Origin: Formicincola oecophyllae | GTDB lineage: Bacteria; Pseudomonadota; Alphaproteobacteria; Acetobacterales; Acetobacteraceae | DNA: 64,000 nt | Direction of reading: 5' to 3' | NCBI RefSeq assembly: GCF_006542395.2 | Contig: NZ_CP038231.1 | Location: 372,001-436,000 of the forward strand | Program-made: the position numbers and the translations under genes | The notes under the pieces: model-generated | Seen by the model: only the letters and a program-made list of their open reading frames with translations | What the model was told of the DNA's origin: nothing | The model's database searches: none | Shown here: positions 946-5,887 of the stretch, one piece after another | How positions within the stretch are numbered: position 1 is the first letter of the stretch | How the letters are laid out: each line of letters begins with the position of its first letter

Positions 946-1027
946 TGGGAACTTTTTTCCCAGGGCGCGTCTAAGTCATAGCATTGTGGCCTTGACAGTG
1001 TGGGAAAAAAATTCCCATCTCTTCCCA
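946..1027. promoter_or_regulatory. Tandem dyads TGGGAA-N5-TTCCCA in the carA/yqeY control region
   Basis: Two perfect 17-bp inverted repeats with identical arms lie at 946-962 (spacer CTTTT) and 1001-1017 (spacer AAAAA), 55 bp apart. A further half-site TTCCCA is at 1022-1027. A consensus -35 TTGACA sits at 992-997 pointing toward carA, so the second dyad falls in the -35/-10 spacer; the -10 itself is weak (about 1015-1021). The layout looks like a pair of operators. The binding protein is unknown; the HTH-like domain on CarA itself is the obvious candidate. Confidence 0.6.
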
Positions 1028-1034
1028 ACAGGCA

Positions 1035-2594
1035 GTGTCTGACAACACACCAATGGAGCCAGAGAACCCACCTATGCAGGATGTGGACAGCATTATCACG
1101 GCCGCTGGTGGTGCGGCTCATGTGGCCAGGCTTGCCGGCGTTGGTTCAGAAGCCGTGCGCAAATGGCGCCAGTCAGGTGCCATCCCCGCCAAGCATTGGC
1201 CCCTTTTCCTAAGCTTCCCTGGGGTGAACATGGCAATGTTGACTGCTCTTGCGCCACGACAGAAATCCACCACGCTGCGCCCCAAGCCGCTTCAGGCTCA
1301 GCGCGCCGCCACACCACCTGCTCCCTCCACCCACCATGGGAAGGACCGCATGACCCAACGCACCACCCCCAACCACTTGCGCGCTAACCTGCACCAACCT
1401 GCTGGGGCGACCGCAGCCCTCATTTTGGCTGATGGTACCGTCCTATGGGGTCGGGGCTTTGGCGCCTACACCCCTGCTGAAGGTGGCCAAGTAGCGGAGC
1501 TCTGCTTCTGCACAGCCATGAGCGGTTACCAGGAAACGCTGACCGACCCTTCCTTCACAGGGCAGATCATCACCTTCACCTTCCCCCACATTGGCAACAC
1601 AGGCACCAATGCTGAAGACCATGAAGCCAGCCATATGCTGGCCGCTGGCATGGTGGTGAAGGACATGGTCACAGAGCCATCCTCCTGGCGCAACGAAGGT
1701 GGCGCTGAAGGTGACCTGCGCGCTTGGCTTACACGGCAGGGCAAGCCAGGCATCGCTGGGTTGGACACGCGTTTCATCACCCGCCTGCTGCGCGACCACG
1801 GGCCACAGTCCGCCGTCATCGCCTACCCAGCTGAAGGTCAGGTGGACGTGAAAAGCGCCCTTGAGCGGGTGCGGCTTTGGGAAGGGCTGGAAGGGGCCGA
1901 TTTGGGCAGCCAAGCGGCCAGGCCGGCGCGAAGCTGGGACAAGGGGCGCTGGGAGGGGTTCATCATGCCCAAAGCCCCCACAGGCACGCCGCGCCGCGTT
2001 GTCGCGCTGGATTTCGGCGCCAAGGACAACATCCTGCGTTCCCTGGTCAGCGCGGGCTGCGCGGTGCAGGTCCTGCCAGGGACAGCCAGCTTTGAAGACA
2101 TCATGGCACAGGCGCCAGAAGGTGTGTTCCTCTCCAATGGGCCTGGGGACCCTGCCGCCACAGGGGTGAAGGTGGTGCCCGTGCTGAAGAAGCTGCTTGA
2201 AAGCGCCATACCCTTGTTTGGCATCTGCCTGGGCCACCAGCTGCTGGCCCATGCGCTCGGTGGCAAGACCACGAAAATGGCCCGCGGCCATCATGGGGCC
2301 AACCAACCCGTGAAGGACCTGGCGACCGGCCGGGTGGAGATCACCAGTCAAAACCATGGTTTCGCTGTGGATGAGGCCAGCTTGCCTGCAGATGTGGTGG
2401 TGACTCACCGCAGTCTGTTTGACGGCACCAATGAAGGCATCGCCTCCCCCCGTCACAAGGCGTTCTCCGTTCAGTACCACCCTGAGGCCAGCCCCGGGCC
2501 GACAGACAGCCAGCACTTGTTCCAGCGCTTTGTGGCCAACATTGACGCAGCACGTGCAGCGCGCGCCAACACCCAAACCAGCCCGAACACCTAA
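1035..2594 (+). CDS. carA: Carbamoyl-phosphate synthase small subunit with N-terminal HTH-like domain
   Basis: Glutaminase subunit that supplies ammonia to CarB for carbamoyl phosphate, the precursor of pyrimidines and arginine. The frame is open for 519 codons from a GTG at 1035. Residues ~14-55 look like a short helix-turn-helix domain ([10 protein letters not shown] then [11 protein letters not shown]), similar to the 'carph-isopro' domain as I recall it. Canonical CarA begins at the ATG at 1350 (residue 106, 414-residue product), which has its own GGAAGGA site. The C-terminal class I glutamine amidotransferase has Cys398 in G-I-C-L-G-H-Q and the His482/Glu484 pair in Y-H-P-E. No stop separates the two parts, so either a fusion or two starts is possible; in-frame starts also occur at 1053 and 1074. 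carB follows after 17 bp. Confidence 0.95.

Positions 2595-2611: not shown

Positions 2612-5887
<3,276 letters not shown>

Follow-up and report, generated by a model that had tools for sequence, protein, structure and literature searches.

Phage Cro repressors bind symmetric operators that adjoin their own gene, and the enzymes PutA and BirA each contain a DNA-binding domain and repress their own operon. In E. coli, carAB is transcribed from tandem promoters under arginine and pyrimidine control, exerted through several transcription factors and trigger enzymes, and its product is a CarAB heterodimer that is inhibited by UMP and forms tetramers with ornithine (PMC6245113). In the portions of that account drawn on here, the regulators of carAB are separate proteins and no DNA-binding domain of CarA is mentioned (PMC6245113). 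The carA locus of Formicincola oecophyllae combines elements of all three systems. As in PutA and BirA, a catalytic part and a part of DNA-binding type are joined in one chain, and autogenous control would, judging from comparative evidence, be a further shared feature; unlike in PutA and BirA, the enzyme is here the small subunit of carbamoyl-phosphate synthase, and the fold joined to it is Cro-like. The N-terminal domain of CarA resembles the Cro proteins of P22, N15 and the Xfaso 1 prophage in HTH sequence and probably in fold, but, whereas phage Cro is a small phage protein, the domain forms the N-terminus of a housekeeping enzyme, with the sites lying in the promoter region of that enzyme. 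From comparison of sequences, we consider it highly probable that CarA is an autoregulatory enzyme, the Cro-like HTH of which binds dyads at the carA promoter and represses carAB. Mainly open-access literature, searched at the level of abstracts, yielded no published account of autoregulation by a CarA HTH or of a Cro-like domain on such an enzyme, and a term search of the main text of PMC5756330 found no mention of carA.

The stretch of DNA analyzed, here called the window, comprises 64,000 nt of the F. oecophyllae contig NZ_CP038231.1 (positions 372,001–436,000, forward strand). Its carA ORF occupies 1035–2594 on the plus strand and encodes 519 amino acids in the long form that starts at the GTG at 1035 (ATG codons at 1053 and 1074 are alternative starts). 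The protein scores 406.8 bits against TIGR01368, the glutamine-hydrolysing carbamoyl-phosphate synthase small subunit (cut-off 307.35), with the enzyme domains spanning residues 127–504 (1413–2546, plus strand). It is also a member of NF046037, with 51.6 bits for the whole protein and 54.3 bits for its N-terminal part (cut-off 38), and this NCBIfam carph-isopro domain, a Cro-like HTH, covers residues 17–60 (1083–1214, plus strand). With both profiles above cut-off, a catalytic part and a domain of DNA-binding type are encoded in one ORF. A second plus-strand ORF of 1091 codons (2612–5887) begins 17 nt past carA; we take it to be carB, after the initial annotation, and presume that it is co-transcribed. 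On the other side, a divergent gene on the minus strand (400–852) is called yqeY-like, again after the initial annotation. Among the CarA-profile matches listed in the family genomes, one (G033) has an internal stop and the others have none. Two apparent splits were considered as cases of a separate regulator and set aside: in G087 the domain and the enzyme lie in different frames, where six consecutive G point to an assembly error, and in G035 they lie on different contigs.

That the carA product carries an HTH-like domain, as first read from the sequence, is borne out both by NF046037 and by matches to Cro in sequence and fold. A profile built from 49 sequences matched Cro-type entries in the PDB, namely XPH1 (5w8y; E = 0.00067), which combines two Cros in a hybrid, the Xfaso 1 Cro (3bd1; E = 0.001) and the N15 Cro (2hin/6on0; E = 0.0039). 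Because the Pfam families P22_Cro (17.4 bits, cut-off 30.2) and YdaS (24.4 bits, cut-off 30) both remain below cut-off, we term the domain Cro-like rather than Cro. The predicted domain has five helices and a mean pLDDT of 80, and DSSP on this model places the predicted recognition helix at residues 32–41 (1146–1175, plus strand). Foldseek with this domain returned Cro proteins in all of its first eight rows, at weak E-values (0.17 at best). VIA-align ranked 3bd1 first (Z 6.4, with 62 residues aligned at rmsd 2.8), followed by an unrelated enzyme (Z 5.5) and, in third place, the P22 Cro 1rzs (Z 5.3), with 6on0 at Z 4.8; these Z values are below the safe range by themselves, and the sequence matches agree with a Cro fold. 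In the full-length model, residues 63–98, between the domain and the enzyme, have pLDDT values below 50, and the linker joining the HTH to the catalytic part is probably flexible.

Upstream of carA, the window contains two exact copies of TGGGAA-N5-TTCCCA, a distal dyad at 946–962 (TGGGAACTTTTTTCCCA) and a proximal dyad at 1001–1017 (TGGGAAAAAAATTCCCA), both listed without strand. As the initial annotation had reported, they have the same 6-bp arms and the same N5 spacing, with starts 55 bp apart; its view that chance is an improbable origin also stands, as the window holds exactly two matches against a mean of 0.01 in 100 shuffles, none of which contained two. In the whole genome (1,957,668 bases), these two sites are the only exact matches. 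Both have counterparts that are kept in relatives. An additional TTCCCA half-site at 1022–1027 (likewise without strand) was also described at the outset, and it is present in the sequence; it is, however, not conserved, since every base stays below 60% across the 165 relatives at +21 to +26 past the proximal dyad, and its occurrence is probably incidental.

Conservation of the dyads was examined across the Acetobacteraceae. Retrieval with the N-terminus of the window CarA gave 208 loci, of which the best 80, all from named genomes, were fetched, and 78 of these 80 have TGGGAA-N5-TTCCCA at no more than two mismatches just upstream, mostly in two copies; the dyad escapes this threshold in L044 and L050, which carry CCGGAA-N5-TTCCGC. 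With further loci from family genomes added, the first set comprised 165 domain-bearing loci including the window, with 145 distinct 120-bp upstream sequences. An exact GGAA-N5-TTCC core lies upstream in 161 of the 165, and all 165 have a site with at least seven of the eight core bases, counts that are not independent, as some of the loci belong to one species or to close relatives. Two exact cores occur within about 220 bp upstream in 110 loci, one in 51 and none in four. In control windows of the same size the exact core occurred in 0/165 cases inside the gene and 1/164 further upstream, and a site at seven of eight bases in 9/165 and 11/164, respectively. An earlier set of 135 loci had given 234 cores in 31,050 upstream bases versus 14 in 501,006 other bases. 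Three loci in which the domain is not seen (L197, L201 and L202) are truncated at contig ends and were excluded from the domain counts.

A harder second set consisted of 26 carA regions, 20 of them from family genomes without an exact full dyad, plus those of G121, G015, G077, G090, G119 and G159 (G159 is common to both sets). Here, 23 of 26 regions have the exact core, and two or three sites with at least seven of eight bases occur in every one of the 26. One member, L328, has two exact cores 39 bp apart; its domain was missed by the motif expression and is covered by the CarA profile. Relatives that keep the HTH domain thus keep the dyad in both sets, and the idea of the initial annotation withstands the refuting condition that it had set itself, a dyad missing from close relatives that have the domain.

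At the level of genomes, the exact full dyad was found in 189 of 299 family genomes, compared with 17 of 299 for a reversed-pattern control (hand count). The CarA profile matches in 282 of these genomes, 187 of which have the dyad; among the 17 genomes that lack a match, the dyad is present in 2. Outside the family, the dyad occurred in 29 of 285 genomes and the reversed pattern in 24 of 285 (hand count). Some of the exact dyads behind the count of 189 are located away from carA, as seen in G121, G172, G015, G030 and G061. Several such sites were considered as operators and rejected: those in G061, G121 and G172 (L238, L349 and L350) are within ORFs, and L239 is a near match only, also within an ORF. 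The recurring CCGGAAATTTCTTCCCA was discarded too, as in four genomes (L233–L236) it is part of a long ORF and represents conserved coding sequence; by a motif in it, the ORF appears to resemble an ABC-type ATPase. The exact site of G030 away from carA (L237) is intergenic with respect to ORFs, with a resolvase-like ORF following at about 60 bp. As a separate observation, G071 contains 11 copies of TGGGAA-N5-TTCCCA (L240, L243, L246 and L249–L254), nine with the same spacer on either strand, and these copies are probably a repeated element.

Where the domain is absent, the dyad is absent as well. In three family genomes (G209, G115 and G029), the start of CarA is complete but lacks the domain, and in none of the three does the dyad lie upstream of carA; G029 has two matches at two mismatches, both distant from the gene start. 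In the tree, the domain-less locus of G209 (L198) branches beside that of G030 (L180), where the domain is present along with two perfect dyads. For an outgroup, 30 carA loci were obtained from 44 genomes of other families above cut-off, and one of them proved to be a family member. The GGAA-N5-TTCC core was found in 0 of 28 outgroup carA regions within 400 bp upstream, the RKW motif of the recognition helix likewise in 0 of 28, and a 29th locus (L284) has no core anywhere in it. The domain also has stand-alone relatives, found in G013 and G049 (L285 and L286), and these have no such dyad within the 2 kb examined. This conservation of the dyad with the domain, together with their joint absence, supports by sequence comparison the autoregulatory circuit for carAB that the initial annotation had put forward. 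A separate transcription factor, encoded elsewhere, could bind the dyads while the CarA domain serves another role, and the binding of CarA to the dyads is itself a prediction from sequence. We judge such a factor to be unlikely: dyad and domain are present or absent together, a separate factor would usually have other targets, yet the window genome offers no other exact site, and the CarA domain is itself Cro-like.

The same comparison lends no support to a further suggestion in the initial annotation, that the dyads might also control the divergent yqeY-dnaG genes. A divergent yqeY accompanies carA in 148 of 164 domain loci, leaving 16 that have dyads without a detected yqeY, and the domain-less loci L199 and L200 keep yqeY but lack the dyad. 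The dyad therefore follows the CarA domain, not yqeY. In the CarA tree, the window clusters with L199 and L200 on a long branch, which may reflect long-branch attraction.

The position of the dyads relative to the promoter is clearest in 78 distinct upstream regions in which the proximal dyad is at most 45 bp from the domain. Of the 78, 76 have TTG at positions −6 to −4 from the dyad, the best fit to TATAAT starts at +17, directly past the dyad (mean 3.44/6), and ATG is found at +29 or +30 in 69 of 78. With TTG at −6 to −4 and the best −10 at +17, the 17-bp operator in these regions is the promoter spacer itself, and the transcript would start at or adjoining the start codon. The other 64 regions, among them the window and those of the acetic acid bacteria, have their nearest dyad further from the domain and no TTG at −6 to −4, and their best −10 fit is at +34 (2.91/6). 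The spacing between dyads, measured for 155 pairs, is 38–41 bp in 85, 43–44 bp in 28, 48–51 bp in 30 and 55 bp in two. For the window, the proximal dyad had been placed inside the promoter spacer. This claim holds insofar as a possible −35 hexamer, TTGACA, is present on the plus strand at 992–997, ending 3 bp before the proximal dyad; no sigma-70-like −35/−10 pair, however, passes a simple scan of the window, and the TTG of the relatives with the other promoter type is 3 bp nearer to the dyad than the window TTGACA. The arrangement is thus well supported in the 78 related regions of that other type and unproven for the window genome.

Two alternatives bear on this promoter anatomy. MerR-type activators bind in the spacer between −35 and −10, and their promoters have spacers of 19–20 bp, whereas 17 bp is the best spacer length for sigma-70 promoters. 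An operator that coincides exactly with the −35/−10 spacer, as in the 78 regions, would be compatible with a CarA that bound the dyads and activated carA, for example through a MerR-like reshaping of the spacer. The spacer in these regions is, however, 17 bp and not 19–20 bp, and positive feedback would be unusual for an enzyme of general metabolism, so that activation appears improbable, slightly more so than a separate factor. The arms of the dyads could also pair in RNA, as hairpins acting in attenuation or in control of translation. We give this possibility almost no credence, as in the 78-region type both dyads are upstream of the expected transcript start, changes in the arms are uncompensated (of 324 dyads, 52 have C-C at the second pair and 57 have C-A at the outer pair) and Rfam gave no match over 850–1400.

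To compare the recognition helix with its presumed half-sites, the domains and upstream regions of the relatives were set side by side. Residues E26, A27, R29, K30, W31, R32 and Q33 are invariant in a 40-row alignment of relatives, and the last Q of the helix is replaced by S, T or A in some lineages. Among half-sites of exact cores, proteins with ...RKWRQ have TTCCC in 449 of 510 and TTCCG in 53 of 510, those with ...RKWRS have TTCCG in 26 of 26, and those with T at the helix end have three TTCCC and three TTCCG; the one case with A (L221) has mostly TTCCG-type half-sites, at sites with seven of the eight core bases. In a scan of 44 columns across 118 distinct domains, the residue at the helix end, for which the window has a Gln codon at 1170–1172 (plus strand), predicts the half-site base best (eta-squared 0.67, next 0.30). 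Exceptions occur on both sides. L044, L050, L194 and L226 combine RKWRQ with predominantly TTCCG half-sites, the RKWRT clade has both types and leans to TTCCC, and the Ser protein L228 has one TTCCC-type half-site, at a site with seven of eight core bases. In the second set, L334 and L340 (RKWRQ) lack TTCCC at most half-sites, and L353, with His at the helix end, has TTCCG-type half-sites at its exact site. This imperfect covariation, as seen in L044, L050, L194, L226, L334 and L340, is a further point in favor of a separate factor. The changes amount to three of the helix residue and four of the operator type, which leaves too few independent pairs to support a sign test, and the AU test does not reject a single origin of Ser (p 0.509). 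The covariation of helix and half-site is partial, and a small number of events may underlie it; with the second set of 26 regions, conservation is strengthened and covariation weakened. By analogy with lambda Cro, in which the end of the recognition helix would face the inner and not the outer bases, direct contact between the helix-end Gln of CarA and the half-site base is doubtful.

Returning to CarA as its own regulator, we infer that the HTH, held on its linker, would bind a single 17-bp dyad or a pair of them (TGGGAA-N5-TTCCCA or a variant of it) at the carA promoter, and that its occupancy of the −35/−10 spacer, or of the promoter region, would repress carAB rather than activate it. CarA would shut the carA promoter probably as part of the CarAB complex, such that the level of CarA, and probably the assembly or allosteric state of CarAB, would feed back on carAB transcription. 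If CarAB tetramers form as in E. coli, such oligomers could bridge both operators, and metabolite signals would then tie repression to pyrimidine and arginine status. Were this correct, the enzyme that makes carbamoyl phosphate for pyrimidines and arginine would be the sensor for its own transcription throughout the family, with no separate regulator.

A possible second start lies behind the linker, at 1339–1352 on the plus strand, where GGAAGGA, a strong Shine-Dalgarno sequence, precedes an ATG at 1350 that would give a 414-aa CarA. A Shine-Dalgarno-like motif precedes 86 of 150 linker ATG codons, compared with 415 of 4413 control codons; by locus, 85 of 165 have a linker start with such a motif and 53 of 165 have no linker ATG at all. 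Use of this start, as read from these motifs, may yield a form of CarA that lacks the HTH domain.

The NCBIfam entry NF046037, as retrieved, states no function for the carph-isopro domain, to which an operator is attached here; if the reading is true, the domain would gain the function that its entry lacks, and the related pairs of helix and operator would provide a natural set for the study of how Cro-type proteins read DNA. The domain is above cut-off in 52 of 289 genomes of a class sample, family members included. Four other carriers were tested (L122, L138, L132 and L139) and comprise two mitofilin-like proteins, an NAD(P)H-hydrate dehydratase/epimerase and a crotonyl-CoA carboxylase/reductase. 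No recurrent 17-bp dyad was seen upstream of other domain carriers among the plus-strand loci, two of which were identified as mitofilin-like. Tentatively, and with rather more doubt than conviction, we propose that carph-isopro is a portable Cro module that makes enzymes into self-repressors, with each carrier having its own helix-matched 17-bp dyad of 6-N5-6 geometry, and that the second start of CarA may add a domain-less form; the carriers in question are CarA in the Acetobacteraceae, and the hydrate dehydratase/epimerase and crotonyl-CoA carboxylase/reductase in other Alphaproteobacteria. If the pattern holds for the other enzymes, a class of self-regulating enzymes could be found from sequence alone.

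For the two other enzymes, both patterns were chosen after inspection, the loci are related and some controls are close, and the dyads may serve as leads only. Of nine hydrate dehydratase loci with the domain, eight have a GTACGT-N5-ACGTAC-like dyad that matches 10–12 of 12 bases at 35 to 47 bp before the domain, and the ninth (L292) matches 8 of 12. The dyad is perfect in L287 (−47 from the domain), L299 (−42) and L293 (−35), and its 6-N5-6 geometry is that found at carA; a control with other arms gave 14.0 versus 16.9 on seven related loci. For the crotonyl-CoA carboxylase/reductase, 11 of 23 loci have a TGTTG-N5-CAACA-like dyad (8–10 of 10 bases) at −79 to −83, and a control spacing gave a ratio of 10.0 versus 8.3, on four and five matches. 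At about −80 from the domain, the loci L302–L324 also display GTGTTG/CAACAC repeats and a TGTTGAC-like/CCAACA-like dyad before the crotonyl-CoA carboxylase/reductase genes.
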